Source: Planctomycetota bacterium
GTDB lineage: Bacteria; Planctomycetota; Brocadiia; SM23-32
Length of the DNA stretch: 7,001 nucleotides
Reading direction: 5' to 3'
Assembly (NCBI GenBank): GCA_018334735.1
Contig: JAGXLK010000114.1
Span: 1 to 7,001, forward strand
Under the pieces are notes generated by a model. That model was given only the letters and a program-made list of their open reading frames with translations, made no database searches and was not told where the DNA came from. Below, one piece after another: positions 1 to 7,001 of this stretch (its first letter is position 1; the number at the start of each line of letters is the position of its first letter). Made by a program: the position numbers and the translations under genes.

Positions 1-207
1 GAGAGACCTCGTTATCAATAAGGCACATACTGCATGCTCAAAGAACGGATATTCATATTTTACCAGAACCGTCCTCAGCACTGCAACACTAACTGTGCCC
101 GCAAAAACAATTTTGTCGGCAGAGGCGCGGGCAATCAAAAGCCCGTTTTCAAGGGCGCAACACGTCAAGATTCGGCACGAGCCCATGGATTGTGCAGCTG
201 GGATCAA
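1..207 (-). CDS. Possible partial ORF of unknown function running off the left edge
   Basis: The minus frame whose upstream stop is at 301-303 stays open to position 1 (100 codons). A TTG at 207 follows a purine-rich GAGGAAGG (complement of 219-226) at 11 nt, and an ATG lies at 186. From the TTG this gives 69 codons, including LTCCALENGLLIARAS and ADKIVFAGTVSVAVLRTVLV. It would begin about 55 nt after the glycosidase stop, as an operon partner. I do not recognise the product. The overlapping plus frame is also open here, so openness alone proves little; this may be non-coding. Confidence 0.25.
   Translation of the reverse strand, partial: MIPAAQSMGSCRILTCCALENGLLIARASADKIVFAGTVSVAVLRTVLVKYEYPFFEHAVCALLITRSL
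128..156. terminator. Weak candidate bidirectional terminator downstream of the glycosidase
   Basis: CGGGC (128-132) and GCCCG (141-145) form a 5-bp stem followed by TTTT on the plus strand. The same GCCC arm can pair with GGGC (153-156) to give a hairpin followed by TTTT on the minus strand. The minus hairpin lies about 107 nt after the glycosidase stop. The stems are short with 8-nt loops, so termination efficiency is doubtful. It conflicts with the possible partial ORF at 1-207. Confidence 0.25.
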
Positions 208-262
208 TTGTGCTTTTGCCTTCCTCGCATGTCCAGTGCTGAAGGCGCCCGGGAGATTCGGG

Positions 263-2320
263 TTAACCTGCGGACGCAGCTCCCACCAGCCTCGCGCAAC
301 TCAGGTATTCAATCTCAGTAACGCTGAATTCGCACACCCCGCTGTTGTAGTCGAACGGTATCTCTTCGCCTTCAGGTTCGAGCACGACTTTTTCGACATT
401 CTCGCAGCGGACCCGGCAGGTGATATCCGTGGCTGGATCGGGTTCTTCGACAGCAGCGATGGCCGATTGGCCGCCCTGGTGGCCGAGAGCATAGTGAATG
501 AGGTTCAGAAGAAGATCGTTTTCTTTTTGCATGAGATTGGTTTCGACCAATGCGGTTCCATCGATATCAACGGGAGTCTCGGGATCGACATATCGGATGA
601 GCGCTTCCATAAACTGGCGCAGCCAGTGGTGGTTTGTCTGCCAGTAAATGTCGAATATTGATGCGGCGACATATACTGCTTTCCCGCCTCCGTCTTCATT
701 AACGCTCGCGAAGGGGAACGGACTGCGTTGCCGGGAAGCTGGCGAATAACGCGAGCGGAATTCTTTTATCCCCCCCTGTCGTTCGGCCATCGGGTAGAAA
801 AGAGCTGCCAGTTCGCGTGCGGTGGTGAGCCGTGTTTTGAACGCCTGACCGCGGACCTGAAGGGGGATATCGGCCGTTTTGCCTTTTACTTCTGCGGCGG
901 GAGAAAAATGGCAGGTGCTGAAACTGAGGGGCTCGATGTACTGGAGGCCGAAGGTTTTTTCGAGTTCGAAAGTTTTGCCATTAATGAGCGCCTTTCCGAT
1001 TGCGATCACCGTGCCGCCCTGTTTGATAAAGTCGTTCAGTTTTTCGATCGTTTCGCGGCGATATCCTGTCGGCTCGGGCAAAATAATGGTCTGGAATCGA
1101 GACAGATCATCTGCCAGGAGGCTGTAGACGATATCGCACTGGATGTGGCTTTCAATGAGCATTTTGTGGGCACCGCGCCAGGGGCCATAATGGTGCCAGT
1201 CTCCACGACAATTGTCGCAGGCGGCTGCGTGCATCGGAAGTTCCGGATCAGGGGTTGGGAGCAGCACGGCGGTATGGGGCAGGGATTCAGTGTCTTTGAA
1301 CAGGTCTTCTCGTTTTTCGACAAAACCGAACGCTTTGTCGAACATTTCGTAGACCGGTGGCTGCAGCGTGCCATCGACATTAACCTGATCTCCTGAGACG
1401 GCGGGCGCGCCATTGCCGATCATCGCGGCGAATTCAGTCGTCATCTGCGCTGCTGGTTTCAGCGTGAGGTCGCCCCAGCCCTGGTAAAATCGTACGGACA
1501 TAACCTGGACATCAACGGTATCGTTGCGGGCGGTGCGTGCGGCAAAACTGTGTCCGAGGTAATCGCCCGGGCGAGGTTGGGATTCCCAGCATCCGATTTC
1601 ACAGAGATTTTTGATATTGAGGGACATCGCAGAACTGCCAACACGGTTCATGGCGACAACAAGTTCCGGATTGTGTTTGTCGATGATAGCGCGGACCTCT
1701 TTGAGATAATCTTCGACGGTGCGCATCGTGAGACGGTTGAGCAAATCGGTCGGCATGTTCGGGCTGATTTCTTTCCCCAGTTCTTGCTTCCATTTGCGCT
1801 GGCAATGGGAACAGAAGCACGGTTTTTCCCCACCCAGCGGGAGCGGTATATCGAGCCAGAAACCGTCGACAGGGTATTGGGCGATTTCCGCCAGTTGCGG
1901 CATAACCAGTTCGTCTTTATACGGGCTATTCATGCACATGCAGGCCCAGAAAGTGCCGTCTCCATATGTGTTGCCTTCGCCGTCCTTGAATCGCCAATCG
2001 GGATTAGCGTCCCAGGCTCTTTTGTCCACACAGAGGGAGTAGTATGCGAGTGTTTTAATGTTTCTTCGGCGGCATTCAGCGGCCGCGCTTTTAAGAAAAT
2101 CCTGTTCGAGCCCGGCGTGTTTATGTCCCACTTTCGTGTCATAGAAAGAATTTCCGAAATGGCATTTCGAAAACAGGGCCACCATATTTACGCGGCCGCG
2201 CTCCAGGTAGTCGACGAATTTTTCTGGGTCGTAGTTGACGATGGCGCCTTCAGGGAATTCAGGCATATGGAAGTCCATATGGACCTGACGCATGTGATCA
2301 CGAAACCAGGGGCAATGCAT
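263..2320 (-). CDS. GHL6-type putative glycoside hydrolase with beta-galactosidase-trimerization-like domain
   Basis: Complete 685-residue protein, ATG at 2320, TAA at 263-265. The start is fixed by a strong Shine-Dalgarno (AAAGGAG, complement of 2329-2335) 8 nt upstream. There is no signal peptide, so it is probably cytoplasmic. The N-terminal half (about 1-325) reads as a TIM-barrel hydrolase of the GHL6 class: the stretch around 45-70 (NMVALFSKCHFGNSFY, then VGHKH), YYSLCVD at 93-99, NPDW at 106-109, DGFWLDIP at 152-159, and CEIGCWE at 240-246. Asp157 and Glu246 are candidate acidic active-site residues by position only. A CxCxxC cluster (168, 170, 173) follows the DGFWLDIP strand and may bind metal, as in some GH42-like enzymes. 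Residues about 380-445 (GPWRGAHK, then IILPEP and FIKQGGTVIAIG) look like the class-I-glutaminase-fold trimerization domain of GH42 enzymes. A C-terminal beta domain (about 590-685) ends the protein. The likely role is hydrolysis of an oligosaccharide or glycoside; the substrate cannot be told from sequence. Family assignment is confident, enzymatic activity is inferred. Confidence 0.85.
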   Translation of the reverse strand: MHCPWFRDHMRQVHMDFHMPEFPEGAIVNYDPEKFVDYLERGRVNMVALFSKCHFGNSFYDTKVGHKHAGLEQDFLKSAAAECRRRNIKTLAYYSLCVDKRAWDANPDWRFKDGEGNTYGDGTFWACMCMNSPYKDELVMPQLAEIAQYPVDGFWLDIPLPLGGEKPCFCSHCQRKWKQELGKEISPNMPTDLLNRLTMRTVEDYLKEVRAIIDKHNPELVVAMNRVGSSAMSLNIKNLCEIGCWESQPRPGDYLGHSFAARTARNDTVDVQVMSVRFYQGWGDLTLKPAAQMTTEFAAMIGNGAPAVSGDQVNVDGTLQPPVYEMFDKAFGFVEKREDLFKDTESLPHTAVLLPTPDPELPMHAAACDNCRGDWHHYGPWRGAHKMLIESHIQCDIVYSLLADDLSRFQTIILPEPTGYRRETIEKLNDFIKQGGTVIAIGKALINGKTFELEKTFGLQYIEPLSFSTCHFSPAAEVKGKTADIPLQVRGQAFKTRLTTARELAALFYPMAERQGGIKEFRSRYSPASRQRSPFPFASVNEDGGGKAVYVAASIFDIYWQTNHHWLRQFMEALIRYVDPETPVDIDGTALVETNLMQKENDLLLNLIHYALGHQGGQSAIAAVEEPDPATDITCRVRCENVEKVVLEPEGEEIPFDYNSGVCEFSVTEIEYLSCARLVGAASAG

Positions 2321-2328
2321 GGATCAAT

Positions 2329-2341
2329 CTCCTTTCCGGAG
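2329..2341 (-). promoter_or_regulatory. Shine-Dalgarno of the glycosidase gene, able to form a small hairpin
   Basis: The minus strand reads CTCC, GGAAA, GGAG just before the start codon. The strong ribosome site (AAAGGAG, 8 nt from the ATG) decides the start at 2320. Its GGAG can pair with the CTCC upstream across a 5-nt loop, which could partly mask the site, though four base pairs is weak. Confidence 0.6.
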
Positions 2342-2381
2342 GGATGAGGCGAGTTTGAAAGCGGATAGCCCGGATATTTCA

Positions 2382-2478
2382 AGCGTCGCCAGTGCCGGAG
2401 ATGCGCGGAAGGCAAACGCAGGAGTGTTCTTACACTTCAAAAACAGCCTGACAGAGCAGAGACGGTGCTGGCGACGCT
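2382..2478. repeat. Nested inverted repeats in the glycosidase leader region
   Basis: AGCGTCGCCAG (2382-2392) is exactly repeated in inverted form at 2468-2478. Read as plus-strand RNA the stem extends to 16 pairs (2382-2397 with 2463-2478), including two G-U pairs. Inside the 65-nt loop lies a second hairpin, 2421-2438, with seven pairs including one G-U and a TCTT loop. On the minus strand, where the glycosidase leader would be transcribed, each G-U becomes an A-C mismatch. It could be a leader element or a separate plus-strand structured RNA; no convincing promoter for the latter is visible. Confidence 0.55.
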
Positions 2479-2483
2479 CCCGG

Positions 2484-2519
2484 AGGGTGAATCCTTTCTT
2501 TTGAGCCGAAGTACACCCT
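2484..2519. repeat. Short inverted repeat in the glycosidase leader region
   Basis: AGGGTG (2484-2489) and CACCCT (2514-2519) are inverted copies separated by 24 nt. It lies immediately upstream, in the minus sense, of the larger repeat at 2382-2478 and would fall within the predicted glycosidase leader. With six pairs and a long loop it is weak alone. Confidence 0.35.
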
Positions 2520-2676
2520 GTGCCAATGAGAAATGTCGAAAAACTGCATCTAAGTCGCTCTCATCCGTGTCGTTATAACAATTATGCCGTTGGATTCATG
2601 AAATATCCCGGATAGTCTCCACGGCCTGGCGCAAAGAACACAAAAAGTGCAGAAAAATCCAGCGTCCAGAGTCTGA

Positions 2677-2705
2677 ATAGTAATGTTGTCTGTTCGAAGC
2701 GTCAA
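2677..2705 (-). promoter_or_regulatory. Candidate divergent promoter for the glycosidase gene
   Basis: On the minus strand, TTGACG (complement of 2700-2705) and TACTAT (complement of 2677-2682) are separated by 17 nt. This is 5/6 and 4/6 to the sigma-70 consensus with the optimal spacer. The predicted start near 2670 gives a leader of about 350 nt to the ATG at 2320. A second AT-rich stretch nearer the gene (GTTATAAC palindrome, 2571-2578) could serve as another -10 but lacks a good -35. Confidence 0.5.
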
Positions 2706-2726
2706 GGGGTCAGAAAGGTTTTCCTT

Positions 2727-2754
2727 TTGACAAGGAACAGGATGTGCCTATAAT
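2727..2754 (+). promoter_or_regulatory. Consensus sigma-70-type promoter for the fusion permease gene
   Basis: TTGACA at 2727-2732 and TATAAT at 2749-2754 with a 16-nt spacer: both hexamers match the housekeeping consensus exactly. Transcription would start near 2761, giving a leader of about 140 nt before the ATG at 2902. This predicts strong constitutive initiation unless a regulator acts on it. An inverted repeat (AAAGG, TTTT, CCTTT; 2714-2727) touches the -35 box and could be an operator or chance. Confidence 0.75.
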
Positions 2755-2768
2755 TACGGTCCCTGCAA

Positions 2769-2789
2769 CCTGATGCCCGACGGGTCAGG
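2769..2789 (+). promoter_or_regulatory. Stable hairpin in the 5' leader of the permease gene
   Basis: CCTGA (2769-2773) pairs with TCAGG (2785-2789), and CCC (2776-2778) pairs with GGG (2782-2784), leaving a 2-nt bulge and a GAC loop. It starts about 8 nt after the predicted transcription start, so it would sit at the very 5' end of the mRNA. It may stabilise the transcript or be part of a larger leader structure. It matches no riboswitch class I can recognise, and there is no U-tract after it, so it is not a terminator. Confidence 0.5.
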
Positions 2790-2901
2790 CAAATGCGGTA
2801 CGTGGTTGTTTGATTTGGAACTGTGTGAGTATGGCGTAGCGGTTTTTATCCGGCCGCGCTGGAACCGATAAATATACCGGTTGATTTGAGAAAAAGAGGC
2901 G

Positions 2902-5900
2902 ATGAAGCGCAAATTTGCCCCCGTTTTTGTTGCGATTCTGTCCACTGCGTTGGCGCTATTGGTGCCGTGCGTATCGGCCCTGGGCGCTGGCGACATGGAG
3001 CAGCAGGTTCTGCGCGATTTGCGGGACATTAATCCGACCCGCCATTTAGAACGGTTATCATCGCTACCAAGTCGTTTTACGGGGTATGCGGGATGCAGCG
3101 AGGCGGAGAAATACGTTCATGACAGGTATGAATCGCTCGGGCTTGCTAATATTCGTCGGGAGCCCTTTCAGATAATCATTCCTGTCGATGAGGGAGCGGG
3201 GAAGATCAGGGTGCAGAGCCTTGAGGGCGAAGAGGTCGAAGCGCCTGTCTATTGTTTTCGCCCAAATTCGGTTCGATCTCCCAAAACGCCTGAGAGCGGT
3301 ATTAGGGGGCAACTAATCTGGGGGGGGCAGGGATATTTGCGCAATTTTAACCAGAAGGACGTGATGGGCAGCATTGTCCTGATGGAGTTCAACACGGCCA
3401 GCCGCTGGCTCAATGCGGCCAAGCTTGGTGCGAAGGCGATTGTCTTTGTTGAACCTCGTCATGCTTTTCGGAATGACGCTGAACAGAAATACAGCTCGAT
3501 TCCTATACCGATTCCTCGTTACTACATTCAGCGTGAACATCTGCCAAAGATTGCCGGGGCTCTGCTAAAGCAAGAAAACAGTGAGCTTGGGTCGGCGGAG
3601 GCGTTGAAGGAATTGGCACGGCTTGGAGAGCCGGGCGCCGAAAATGGTTTGAAGGCAAGGGCAAGAGTTTTTGCGGACATGGTGTGGGAAGAGAAGACCG
3701 TTTACATGGTTTCGGGCGAGATCCCCGGAACCGATCCCGAATTGGCTCGGCAGACACTTGTGTGTCACTCTTACTACGATAGTACTTCCGTCGTGCCCGC
3801 TTTGAGTCCGGGTGCGGAGAGCGCGTGCGGAATTGCATCTCAAATTGAAATCGCACGTTTCCTCACGAAACATCCCCCGCGCCGGACGGTGAAGTTTCTC
3901 GCTACTCCGGGTCATTTCCAGGCTCTTGCAGGAGTCCGTCAGTACGCTTTTGAGGAAGTGTATTCGCATCGAAAAGGAATAGCAAAAACTGAAGAAGAGG
4001 CACGTGCAGGAGAGCCGCATTTCTTTATTGGACTCGATATTTCCAGCCGGCATAATTCCATGGCGGGTTTCTATAAGGGGCATTTTTACGATCAGAACGG
4101 GGAAGACAATGAAATTAAACTTCAACGCCTCTATTCTGATTACAGTGATCTTCTCCTGGATTGGGCGGGCAAGATTGCCGGGCCGGGGCGGCTTGCGCCG
4201 AACCTTGTTTTTCAGAGTGGGATTGTCCCGCAACATGGCCGACACTGGCGTGCTCTTCTGCCGGGACTTGTTGCGTTTGACGCTGAGGTCTTGTCTTTGT
4301 GCGGGCGCCCTTCTATCACATTGGCTACCACCGGAGATCCCCGGAACGCTGTTAATACTCCGGCCGACACGTTCGAGAATATTTCACCGTTTCTCAATAA
4401 TGTAAAAGATCAGGCTCAGGCAAGTGCTTTTATTATTAAGAAAACCGCCGATATCGCTTCCATCCCGCTTAATGACACATTGAAACTCGGTAGGGTCGGG
4501 AGCATCTTTGGGCGTGCTATTGAGCAAACTTTGACGGCCTATGTGCCCACCGTGAATGTGCCGGATGCCGTTATCGGGGTCCCTCTCAGTGACAATCGCA
4601 GTATGTTAGGGGTCAGTGGCCAAACGTACGCACGCAGTGATGTCCAGGGGCTGTTTGAGGTCTTTGGCGCAAAAACGACGGCGAATATCCCGGTTGAAGG
4701 ATTTAAAGTTTCGCCCAGCGAAGGTTCGATCCAAGCGATTGCCAAGCGTGGTTTAGTTAAACCTTCCGCGCGAGTACGAGACGAATGGGAGCTGCGGAAG
4801 ACGGACCTGCGACTGAACTTTTACGAATGCGCGAGCACGACCATTTTCGATCTTGTAGAACCCTTAAGATTCCAGATGATAGGTGGTGCTTCTGCTCTGC
4901 GGGCCGAAGCTGATAGTGAAGTCCGGAGCGAAAAACTCGTCGTCTACACGGGGAAACCCGCCCAAAGCAGTTCATATACGCAGCCGATTGCGGTGGTATT
5001 TACGAATCTGGATAGGAAGAAGAAATTCAAGTTTTTGCTTTCGGGCAAGGGTGTCCTTTTGAACGTGCCTGTTCCGCTTGATAAGAAGCAGTCTGTTGCC
5101 AGAGGGCGGGGGCTGAGCAGCGTGCTGGGATCTGGGCTCGGAGAAGGTGAGGGGGGAACGGGTGAGAGCAGGTATACCAGCAAGGAAAACGAGGAGATTA
5201 CTCCGGAAGATTTGTTTGAAGGGCAGGGGTTCAAAGCGGACCAACCCGAAAATTACATCCACTATTCAGCGCTACAAAGTGCTCTGGATATGCATCTGCT
5301 GGATTACTTTCGCCTCTATAATCTTGAGCAGACGGCGATCAGCAAAAAGAATCTCAAAGATCTCCACGCGGAGAGTCAGAAGCATCTGAATGAAGCACTC
5401 AAGGCGAAAGAAAAAGGTCTTTACGATAAGGCTTACCGACATACTCGACTGGCACAGTCGCTGGAGTTGCGCGTTTATCCCGATGTTAAAGATACTGCGC
5501 ACGACGTTGTGAGGGGGGTCGTCTTTTATTTCGCGCTTCTCCTGCCGTTTGTCATTTTTATTGAGCGATTACTGATCAATTACGTCGATATCCGCAAGAA
5601 ACTCGTGGCAATCGCAGGCTTGTTTGCCATATCGTATCTCGTCCTGCGTCTGGTGCATCCGGCGTTTCGGCTTTCCAAAACGCCGATTATTATCCTTGAT
5701 GGGTTCTTTATGTTGGTGGCTTCGATCTGGACGATTACATATTTGATCATGAAGTTTCAGACGGTTATGGAGCATATTCGGCAGCACATTGATACTATTC
5801 ACCGCGCAGATGTGGCTCGGGCAAGCGCGGCTATGGCGGCTTTTATCCTCGGCATTTCGAATATGCGCAAGCGCAAGATAAGAACGATGCTGACCGCGCT

Positions 5901-7001
5901 GACTCTCATTCTTCTTACATTTACAATCCTGTCCTTTACCAGTTTTGAAACGATGCCGGATCGTCTGCTCCAACATGATACCGGGGAGGAAGCTCCTTAC
6001 ACGGGATTGCTACTGCGTCAGCTTTCGTGGACACCTTTTTCAGAGTTTGGCGCCTACGATGCGATGAACCATTTCCTGACGGAAGGGTATATCGTTTCCC
6101 CGCGGTCCTGGTTCACAAGCCGGAAAAAAACAGAGGAATTGAAACTTGAGATAACGCGGGTTGAAAAAGATTCCGGTGGAGGAGCGCAAAAGCGTGCAGA
6201 AGTCGCGGTTGCTTCAGCTATGGTGGGTATGGCTCCGCAGGAAAGGCTTTTTTCCGGAGTTGATAAGTATGTAAGGTATGGCCGCTGGTTCCCCGGGTTT
6301 GAAGAACGGACAGAAGATATCGATTGGCCGTTCGTTTGCTTATTACCTTCCGGGATACGCGAAAATCTCCGTATTGAACCTGGTGAGATAGAAAAAGGAA
6401 CGGTGAAGGTGAGTGTTCTGGGACGCCAGCTTCGTGTTATAGGCATTGTTGGAACCAGGGAAAAAGTGGATGGAAAGACTTTCTTCCAGCAGGAAGATCT
6501 GGACGAAGAACCGCTCACCCCTGTGGATTTTGTCGAAAGTAGTTTTCGCCAGATGGGAGGCGGCGGCAAGGGCGGGGTCGGACCGTCATTTTCCGCGACA
6601 GGGGAGATGGAAGCCCAGGAGTTTATCTCCCGCAGTCAGAAACAAGATGAAGAAAGTATGTATGTGCATATGGATCCCGATCGCGTGCTTTTTGTCCCCC
6701 ATGAGCTTTGCCTGAAGCTCGGCGGTACCATCCGCAGCATCGCAATGGGACCTGTGGCGGATGAAGAAAAAATCATCATCCGTGATTTTTCCCCGGCAAT
6801 AAAACAGTTTGCGAGCCGGACAAATATGCCTCTTTATGTCGGGATTGATGGGCGGATTCAACGGTTAGCAACCCGCCCGAGCTTGAGTATGGGAGGCTTG
6901 CAGGGATTGATTGTACCGATTATGATTGCCGCTTTGATCGTGTTCAACACGATGCTCGGTGCAGTTTACGAACGTGTGACGGAGATTAAGGTTTACGCGG
7001 C
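2902..7001 (+). CDS. M28-peptidase-like ectodomain fused to MacB/FtsX-type ABC permease (3' end beyond window)
   Basis: Open frame without a stop from ATG 2902 to the right edge: 1366 codons plus 2 nt. Residues 1-30 (MKRKFAPVFVAIL, then ALALLVP) form a signal peptide; cleavage is likely near VSA or LGA at about 25-30. An in-frame TGA at 2887 leaves no other upstream start. GAGG at 2896-2899 is only 2 nt from the ATG, an unusually short spacing. Domains by eye: M28-like, about 35-510, with a PA-like insert near 134-250 (GAKAIVFVEP at 176-185); carboxypeptidase-regulatory-like beta segment, about 540-612; second beta domain, about 614-730; Gly-rich linker, 735-757; TPR-like helical hairpin, about 815-860; membrane segments at about 873-892, 901-918 and 928-950; cytoplasmic basic segment MRKRKIRT at 989-996; helix 997-1013; large periplasmic domain, about 1015-1330; helix about 1334-1353, then VYERVTEIK, the usual FtsX/MacB signature. 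Probably an inner-membrane type VII ABC permease subunit needing a LolD/MacB-like ATPase encoded elsewhere. At least two more helices should follow past 7001. Confidence 0.85.
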   Translation, partial: MKRKFAPVFVAILSTALALLVPCVSALGAGDMEQQVLRDLRDINPTRHLERLSSLPSRFTGYAGCSEAEKYVHDRYESLGLANIRREPFQIIIPVDEGAGKIRVQSLEGEEVEAPVYCFRPNSVRSPKTPESGIRGQLIWGGQGYLRNFNQKDVMGSIVLMEFNTASRWLNAAKLGAKAIVFVEPRHAFRNDAEQKYSSIPIPIPRYYIQREHLPKIAGALLKQENSELGSAEALKELARLGEPGAENGLKARARVFADMVWEEKTVYMVSGEIPGTDPELARQTLVCHSYYDSTSVVPALSPGAESACGIASQIEIARFLTKHPPRRTVKFLATPGHFQALAGVRQYAFEEVYSHRKGIAKTEEEARAGEPHFFIGLDISSRHNSMAGFYKGHFYDQNGEDNEIKLQRLYSDYSDLLLDWAGKIAGPGRLAPNLVFQSGIVPQHGRHWRALLPGLVAFDAEVLSLCGRPSITLATTGDPRNAVNTPADTFENISPFLNNVKDQAQASAFIIKKTADIASIPLNDTLKLGRVGSIFGRAIEQTLTAYVPTVNVPDAVIGVPLSDNRSMLGVSGQTYARSDVQGLFEVFGAKTTANIPVEGFKVSPSEGSIQAIAKRGLVKPSARVRDEWELRKTDLRLNFYECASTTIFDLVEPLRFQMIGGASALRAEADSEVRSEKLVVYTGKPAQSSSYTQPIAVVFTNLDRKKKFKFLLSGKGVLLNVPVPLDKKQSVARGRGLSSVLGSGLGEGEGGTGESRYTSKENEEITPEDLFEGQGFKADQPENYIHYSALQSALDMHLLDYFRLYNLEQTAISKKNLKDLHAESQKHLNEALKAKEKGLYDKAYRHTRLAQSLELRVYPDVKDTAHDVVRGVVFYFALLLPFVIFIERLLINYVDIRKKLVAIAGLFAISYLVLRLVHPAFRLSKTPIIILDGFFMLVASIWTITYLIMKFQTVMEHIRQHIDTIHRADVARASAAMAAFILGISNMRKRKIRTMLTALTLILLTFTILSFTSFETMPDRLLQHDTGEEAPYTGLLLRQLSWTPFSEFGAYDAMNHFLTEGYIVSPRSWFTSRKKTEELKLEITRVEKDSGGGAQKRAEVAVASAMVGMAPQERLFSGVDKYVRYGRWFPGFEERTEDIDWPFVCLLPSGIRENLRIEPGEIEKGTVKVSVLGRQLRVIGIVGTREKVDGKTFFQQEDLDEEPLTPVDFVESSFRQMGGGGKGGVGPSFSATGEMEAQEFISRSQKQDEESMYVHMDPDRVLFVPHELCLKLGGTIRSIAMGPVADEEKIIIRDFSPAIKQFASRTNMPLYVGIDGRIQRLATRPSLSMGGLQGLIVPIMIAALIVFNTMLGAVYERVTEIKVYA
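3004..4431 (+). other. Degenerate M28 (aminopeptidase-like) domain within the fusion protein
   Basis: Residues about 35-510. The fold signature of M28 is visible: HLERLSSLPSRFTGYAG (about 48-64), a YDS after a beta strand (292-294), PGAESACGIASQIEIARFL at 303-321 (canonical PGAxDNASGvaalLElAR), VKFLATPGH at 330-338 (canonical strand ending in Glu-Glu), IGLDISS at 376-382, and NTPADTFENI at 485-494 (canonical HtpaDtlenI). The residues that bind zinc or act in catalysis in active members are mostly replaced: Tyr292 for the first His, Glu306/Ser307 with one residue deleted for the bridging Asp, Gly337-His338 for Glu-Glu, and Asn485 for the last His; only Asp379 looks retained. His289 and His338 could form a changed site. 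The alignment is by eye, so exact correspondences are uncertain; overall degeneracy is fairly clear. Likely role: ligand or protein binding rather than proteolysis. Confidence 0.65.
5515..5751 (+). other. Extra three-helix membrane block ahead of the permease module
   Basis: Residues about 872-950 hold three hydrophobic segments: VVFYFALLLPFVIFIERLLI at about 874-893, VAIAGLFAISYLVLRLV at 902-918, and IIILDGFFMLVASIWTITYL at about 929-948. The loop between the first two carries RKK and should be cytoplasmic, and the loop after the third starts KFQ and leads to an amphipathic cytoplasmic stretch (about 951-990). Standard MacB-like permeases have four helices and no such block, so the complete protein probably has about seven transmembrane helices plus the signal peptide. 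The block anchors the large N-terminal ectodomain to the permease. Confidence 0.7.
5869..7001 (+). other. MacB/FtsX-type permease module (partial)
   Basis: Residues 990-1366. A basic cytoplasmic run (RKRKIRT) leads into a hydrophobic helix (about 997-1013), then a roughly 315-residue extracytoplasmic domain. This domain has beta segments such as IDWPFVCLLPSGI (1141-1153) and VLGRQLRVIGIVG (1172-1184), and a Gly-rich insert (1219-1227). The second helix (about 1334-1353) is followed by VYERVTEIK, which matches the cytoplasmic edge of helix 2 in MacB, LolC/E and FtsX permeases. In that family two more helices complete the domain. The positive-inside rule supports this topology: RKK and RKRK loops are cytoplasmic, and the large domain is outside. 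Whether it transports a substrate or transmits mechanical force, as MacB and FtsX do, cannot be decided here. Confidence 0.75.

Follow-up and report, generated by a model that had tools for sequence, protein, structure and literature searches.

The 7,001-nucleotide stretch analysed here, in the following called the window, comes from a Planctomycetota bacterium (Brocadiia; SM23-32; GenBank assembly GCA_018334735.1, contig JAGXLK010000114.1, positions 1 to 7,001 of the forward strand) and carries a giant gene whose frame comprises 1366 open codons and reaches the window end without a stop. As shown here, this frame represents the large permease subunit of a Type VII (MacB/LolCDE/FtsX-like) ATP-binding cassette (ABC) system, with a degenerate domain of the M28/PA fold on the periplasmic side. 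The original prediction, made from the DNA letters, had joined an M28-like ectodomain, beta domains, a helical hairpin, three membrane helices and an FtsX/MacB-type module in a single frame, and this order is confirmed and shared by homologues (Table 1). The gene is truncated at its 3' end by the window; from comparison with relatives, from which all sequence beyond position 7001 is known, a full length of about 1550 residues is expected.

Table 1. Features of the giant gene and of its product, with positions in the window
Feature	Positions	Strand	Residues	Basis or remark
Giant pseudo-M28/FtsX permease gene	2902..6999	+	1366 of about 1550	
Signal peptide-like N-terminus	2902..2988	+	1-29	hydrophobic core 8-26
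M28 aminopeptidase-fold ectodomain with PA insert	2989..4461	+	about 30-520	
PA domain within the M28 ectodomain	3340..3540	+	147-213	PF02225, E 4e-4; 20.9 bits, below the cut-off of 23.9
Pseudo-active site	3772..4368	+	Y291, D293, E306, H338, F339, D379, N485, D489	register by hhalign
Beta-rich domains	4489..5106	+	about 530-735	secondary structure of the model
Helical hairpin	5266..5412	+	about 789-837	predicted model
Three extra membrane helices	5506..5742	+	about 869-947	hydropathy, and helices in the model of relative L001
FtsX transmembrane helix 1	5890..5946	+	997-1015	preceded by the conserved LGISNMRKRK..RT elbow
MacB-type periplasmic domain	5947..6906	+	about 1016-1335	
FtsX transmembrane helix 2 and ER..EI segment	6910..6987	+	1337-1362	presumed start of the coupling region

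The predicted FtsX/MacB-type module was borne out by an FtsX-fold membrane domain (PF02687) with a periplasmic domain between helices 1 and 2. Invariant columns extend from the start of the ectodomain to this module in an alignment of 24 sequences including that of the window; among them are E1357, R1358, E1361 and I1362 of the ER..EI segment, to which we ascribe a coupling role. As the helices preceding the module are odd in number, its N-terminus would be cytosolic if the ectodomain lies outside. The M28 fold of the ectodomain is upheld by profile and hhalign evidence, and its profile also finds nicalin and transferrin receptor. Structure matches mostly cover model residues 1-539 and hence fall mostly outside the beta-rich domains. 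A scan of the window protein against NCBIfam named no family.

While the peptidase fold predicted for the ectodomain stood, its active site proved to be dead. With the register taken from hhalign, we take Y291 to be the counterpart of His97 in the Aeromonas aminopeptidase, D293 of Asp99, E306 of Asp117, H338 of the catalytic Glu151, F339 of Glu152, D379 of Asp179 and N485 of His256; the residues were then tallied over 189-191 rows of relatives, depending on the site. The position of Glu151 is His in all 190 rows, that of His97 is Tyr or Phe in 186 of 189, that of Glu152 is Tyr or Phe in 185 of 190 and Glu in none, and that of His256 is His in none of 191. Of the five metal-ligand positions, four usually carry another residue. 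Position 379 is Asp in 186 of 190 rows, position 306 Glu or Asp in 179 of 189 and position 485 Asp or Asn in 177 of 191, with Asn, Gly, Ser, Ala or Lys at the latter in 55 of 191. In the 189 rows with all six sites, one canonical residue is kept in 169, two in 18 and none in 2. The set of co-catalytic metal ligands typical of family M28 (His, Asp, Glu, Asp, His), with its general-base Glu, is thus not intact, and an active M28 peptidase of the usual kind is ruled out by the residues at the metal-ligand and catalytic positions. The giant belongs to the Type VII ABC kind and not among the ordinary M28 peptidases; its M28 site is, as far as sequence can tell, a dead but conserved pocket. Two relatives (L126 7564-13848, minus strand, and L127 1-5940, plus strand) have hydrophobic, membrane-like segments within the M28 domain, past the pseudo-catalytic motif.

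A search of proteins for this domain order and its spread, as the original prediction had proposed, gave 473 matches at E ≤ 1e-3 among 7996 candidates scored, and 107 of the best 120 of these measure 1450-1850 residues. The closest among them are proteins of 1551 residues with 61% identity, and the named relatives nearby belong to Planctomycetota and Brocadiia. A scan of species genomes yielded 386 loci encoding giant relatives, of which 80 were kept; going by record titles, they stem from Planctomycetota, Armatimonadota, Omnitrophota, Latescibacterota, Elusimicrobia, Desantisbacteria, TA06, Gemmatimonadetes and others. Six peptide patterns from the window protein found no match in viral contigs. 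Two Planctomycetota giants of 1955 residues (P0064 and P0065) carry further precomputed Pfam domains, including PF00400, which we take to be a WD40-type domain; in P0064 these repeats are placed between the beta domains and the helical hairpin.

In these relatives, the giant gene is accompanied by a recurrent set of partners, which, apart from the ATPase, were outside the view of the original prediction. The most frequent is a polytopic protein of about 660 residues resembling the OPT (oligopeptide/YSL) transporters, whose gene follows the giant within 7 kb and in the same orientation in 43 of the 55 loci with at least 2.5 kb of downstream sequence. The order giant, OPT-like protein, a protein of about 300 residues (c4), PqqD-like protein, small FtsX permease and ATPase occurs in some single loci, for example L047, L121 and L127. 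In six loci the first motif gave no target, and a wider motif or the longest frame was used for those six. The c4 protein has no Pfam family in its L047 member and an LNS2 match below the cut-off in its L006 member, and the PqqD-like protein of L047 matches PF05402 (E 4e-10). The small permease, of about 215 residues, has no periplasmic domain (PF02687, E 2e-15 in L047) and carries the same ER..EI motif as the giant. The ATPase is of the LolD/MacB type, its Walker A, signature and Walker B motifs being intact by sequence, with LolD as the best NCBIfam model at 235 bits, below the cut-off of 307.75. Against the LolCE model, the best of three giants reaches 31.8 bits and the small permease of L047 47.6, far below the cut-off of 362.45 set for LolCDE proper.

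The family ties of the OPT-like partner are remote, yet they appear to extend from end to end. Against nine OPT proteins, hhalign gives 96.3% (E 1.7e-9, 546 columns), compared to 0.1% for an unrelated control, and 91.6% when another family alignment is used; certain source records are named 'OPT family oligopeptide transporter' or 'peptide transporter'. The Pfam OPT model matches 5 of 18 members at 0.1 and exceeds its cut-off in none of five genomes, the single score seen above it being that of P0166 (27.8 versus 25.8 bits). Searched against the PDB, the profile of the partner matched no sequence at E ≤ 1. Homology of the partner to the permease itself was considered as well, and none was seen in a control comparison. 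Enlarged partners of 807-1078 residues occur in G011, G012, G014, G015, G016 and G074, their extra sequence preceding roughly the final 110 model positions.

The original prediction had also expected a separate ATPase adjacent to the giant. A LolD-type ATPase is indeed found in the related genomes, whereas the adjacency often fails, the gene lying in a separate module elsewhere in the genome. In 15 genomes in which this module lies away from the giant, the small FtsX has the ATPase next to it in 14, the PqqD-like protein in eight and c4 in four, and the ATPases of distant modules are 72-80% identical to their best match among those of adjacent clusters. In two loci (L108 7707-9306 and L110 7544-9149, both minus strand), two more ABC ATPases, 31-35% identical, adjoin the small FtsX and its ATPase. 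The partner permease is not minimal throughout: in G001 and G003, with open frames of 474 and 510 residues, it carries extra sequence where the periplasmic domain would be, and longer forms exist in a second phylum too, such as that of 547 residues in G286. These forms suggest that the minimal permease may be a reduction of a longer one.

To follow the parts across genomes, we sampled 199 genomes spread evenly over the phylum of G003 (L003), by record title Planctomycetota, and 151 genomes of the phylum of G009 (L017, Fimbriimonadales), likewise by title Armatimonadota, scoring per genome the top 2-3 candidates for the giant, 6-8 for the OPT-like protein and 15-20 for the small FtsX. In the first sample (giant at E ≤ 1e-50, OPT-like at E ≤ 1e-20), 28 genomes have the giant; of these, 27 also have the OPT-like protein and 25 a strong small FtsX, neither of which occurs outside the 28; G097 is the one without the OPT-like protein. 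All three parts occur together in 24 of the 199, and 171 genomes have none above the thresholds. In the second sample, where the small FtsX was counted at E ≤ 1e-30, 122 genomes have the giant, 121 the OPT-like protein and 119 the small FtsX, with all three in 115. Giant and OPT-like protein share 119 genomes, with only the giant of the two in G272, G306 and G361 and only the OPT-like protein in G280 and G309; giant and small FtsX share 117, with the small FtsX alone of the two again in G280 and G309. In both of these genomes, the OPT-like gene starts less than 700 bases from the beginning of its contig, so that a giant gene may have been lost to the gap.

The copy numbers of the parts differ. 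Among 19 giant-bearing genomes, twelve have one giant, three have two (G011, G012, G017), one has three (G007) and three have seven (G014, G015, G016), G015 with one further giant fragment. When fragments of a single frame, or of a gene split by contig ends, are counted together, the OPT-like genes equal the giants in number except in G014-G016, with five each. A strong small FtsX (at least 180 bits) is found once per genome in 17 of the 19, including the three with seven giants; G002 and G012 have generic matches alone. Likewise, in at least 11 Armatimonadota genomes with two or more giants, each spanning at least giant model positions 60-1490 (G007, G017, G239, G275, G285, G303, G310, G316, G339, G344 and G349), there is exactly one small FtsX at E ≤ 1e-30. 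These gene counts suggest that one small-permease/ATPase module often serves several giant/OPT-like pairs, if not universally.

Other genes lie around the giant as well. Within the window, a divergently transcribed protein of 685 residues (263-2320, minus strand) has a GHL6 glycosyl-hydrolase domain (PF14871, 80.8 bits, E 1.4e-22) and an alpha-L-fucosidase-like match. In the relatives, a protein of about 178 residues is encoded upstream of the giant in 23 loci (L016, L019, L021, L025, L034, L073 and others), the L016 member being a TPR protein, and a polytopic protein of about 650 residues recurs upstream in 12.

How does this system relate to known ones? Nicalin, nicastrin and transferrin receptor have M28-fold ectodomains without peptidase activity; like the giant they carry the fold in a membrane-anchored ectodomain, outside ABC transporters. 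With the M28 aminopeptidases (BSAP/YwaD and Aeromonas AAP), it shares the fold, the positions of the motifs and, in BSAP, the PA insert, whereas its metal-binding and catalytic residues are replaced. In common with MacB, LolC-LolE and FtsX it has a four-helix FtsX membrane domain, a periplasmic domain between helices 1 and 2 and, in relatives, a separate LolD-type ATPase; in contrast to them, it has three additional N-terminal membrane helices, a covalently attached M28-fold ectodomain of about 840 residues and a C-terminal cytosolic domain, and its partner permease would be asymmetric and usually minimal. The membrane proteins of the energy-coupling-factor (ECF) transporters differ from those of the giant system. 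The likeness to them is one of shape only, namely one energising module for several ligand-binding subunits, as described in an excerpt of PMC7755397, and unlike theirs, the sharing proposed here is deduced from gene counts. According to an excerpt of PMC12646458, Type VII ABC systems move lipoproteins, expel drugs, trigger cell-wall enzymes and, as lately found, feed a lipid hydrolase; the latter system, YbbAP-TesA of E. coli, is a precedent for such a motor working with a hydrolase fold on the periplasmic side. There, TesA is a separate, active hydrolase and YbbP a duplicated 10-helix permease, whereas the giant system has a degenerate hydrolase fold fused to its permease, and an unequally divided pair of permeases. 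YbbP, with 10 helices and two large domains in the periplasm (same excerpt), shows that the original description of this superfamily as having four helices and a modest periplasmic domain was too narrow.

What, then, could the giant do? The genomes suggest an asymmetric permease dimer, in which the giant would combine with a second, usually minimal FtsX permease and two copies of the LolD-type ATPase, and would work with the OPT-like transporter usually encoded beside it. ATP binding and hydrolysis would close the FtsX helices by mechanotransmission, as in MacB and LolCDE, and this closure would move the helical stalk, the MacB-type domain and the pseudo-peptidase head. A ligand in the dead M28 pocket could thereby be captured or released, and then be handed to the OPT-like partner. 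PqqD proteins bind peptides. As the aminopeptidase fold, the OPT-like transporter and the PqqD-like protein, which differ in origin, all point to peptides, a peptide or peptide-like ligand appears likeliest, although this is a guess and the weakest step of the mechanism. That ligand binding is coupled to an ATP-driven machine, as originally proposed, is supported as the likeliest reading. Altogether, we give somewhat better than even chances to a Type VII permease that has a pseudo-peptidase head, small FtsX and ATPases and an OPT-like partner and acts as outlined.

Several alternatives compete with this proposal. The giant could be an extractor akin to LolCDE, MacB or YbbAP that pulls a lipid, lipoprotein or hydrophobic compound from the inner membrane, its M28-fold head being only a docking platform and the OPT-like neighbour a separate matter. 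We hold this to be unlikely, given that the LolCE model scores far under its curated cut-off and that no partner is linked as tightly as the OPT-like gene, found in 27 of 28 and 119 of 122 giant genomes and in the downstream position counted above. It is rather improbable that the M28 domain has retained enzyme activity through a remodelled metal site (E306, H338, D379 and often D485) and cleaves peptides or another bond. The strong, non-random conservation of the replacement set (H338, D379, E/D306 and D/N485) would fit such an enzyme, and the title of PDB entry 2anp calls the Aeromonas Glu151-to-His variant a functional mutant; however, the positions of the zinc ligands His97 and Glu152 are almost invariably Tyr or Phe, that of His256 is never His, and position 485 is variable.

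A signalling or cell-wall device in the manner of FtsEX or BceAB, which would report an outside ligand to the inside or activate an envelope protein upon ATP hydrolysis, without transport, seems distinctly improbable. The family does have non-transporting members, according to excerpts of FtsEX papers, the ectodomain is large and sensory-looking, and a cytosolic PqqD-like protein and the c4 protein are encoded in the same order; moreover, the other recurrent neighbour clusters are mostly unannotated, and a signalling partner could sit among them. Yet the most recurrent neighbour is a transporter homolog. An assembly chimera or chance fusion of two genes, for which nothing was found in favour, can practically be dismissed: homologues do not always end near residue 870, as they should in that case, but are found at full length and with the same domain order in many phyla.

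Against the proposed permease with its OPT-like partner stand a number of points. Physical interaction, transport and ligand are at this stage proposals drawn from genomes, and the window's own downstream partners lie beyond its end, the partner genes being known from relatives alone. Within 7 kb downstream, the ATPase is found in only 15 and the small FtsX in 14 of 44 loci, with c4 in 12 and PqqD in seven, counts that, like that of the OPT-like gene, are probably low as mechanical gene calls miss genes in GC-rich loci. A strong small FtsX is missing from G012, G060 and G204 among the 28 giant genomes of the first sample, and also from G002, and a small FtsX from G277, G305, G306, G315 and G320 among the 122 of the second; conversely, there are three strong places for it in G148 and G163 and two in G159, G094, G128, G132 and G131 of Planctomycetota, and two in G289 and G359 of Armatimonadota. 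The cut is narrow at its lower edge, since, next to 24 of 25 genomes at 139 bits or more, the partial match of G178 has 110 bits and giant-free G099 has 103, and with only top candidates scored, absences are less certain than presences. OPT membership is remote, PF03169 matching 10 of 44 members at 0.01, and four of five members with a precomputed OPT label gave no match at 0.01 on rescanning. The divergent giants L123, L124 and L128 have different residues in the pocket motifs. Finally, the Fisher p-values for co-occurrence, 1e-22 to 2e-32, ignore kinship, which makes the gene order conserved across phyla the stronger argument.

In literature searches for the fusion or the gene set, judged by titles or the beginnings of abstracts, we found no published description. 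A bolder reading, which we entertain as possible though doubtful, is that of a new class of envelope machine, in which a Type VII ABC motor has a dead aminopeptidase as a peptide receptor that loads an OPT-family transporter, its module shared as in ECF transporters; to our knowledge, shared motors occur only in other ABC groups. Such a class would be present in about four fifths of the sampled genomes in one phylum and scattered over many others. If true, the fusion of a Type VII motor with a pseudo-peptidase, together with its genome-by-genome link to an OPT-like transporter, would represent a new job for this motor, and if the motor were proven to work the OPT-like transporter, the system would count as a new kind. 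The conserved replacement pocket offers a direct, testable handle on the ligand. With the giant in 122 of 151 Armatimonadota genomes and the full trio in 115, the system may contribute to basic nutrition or to the biology of the envelope in groups that resist cultivation.
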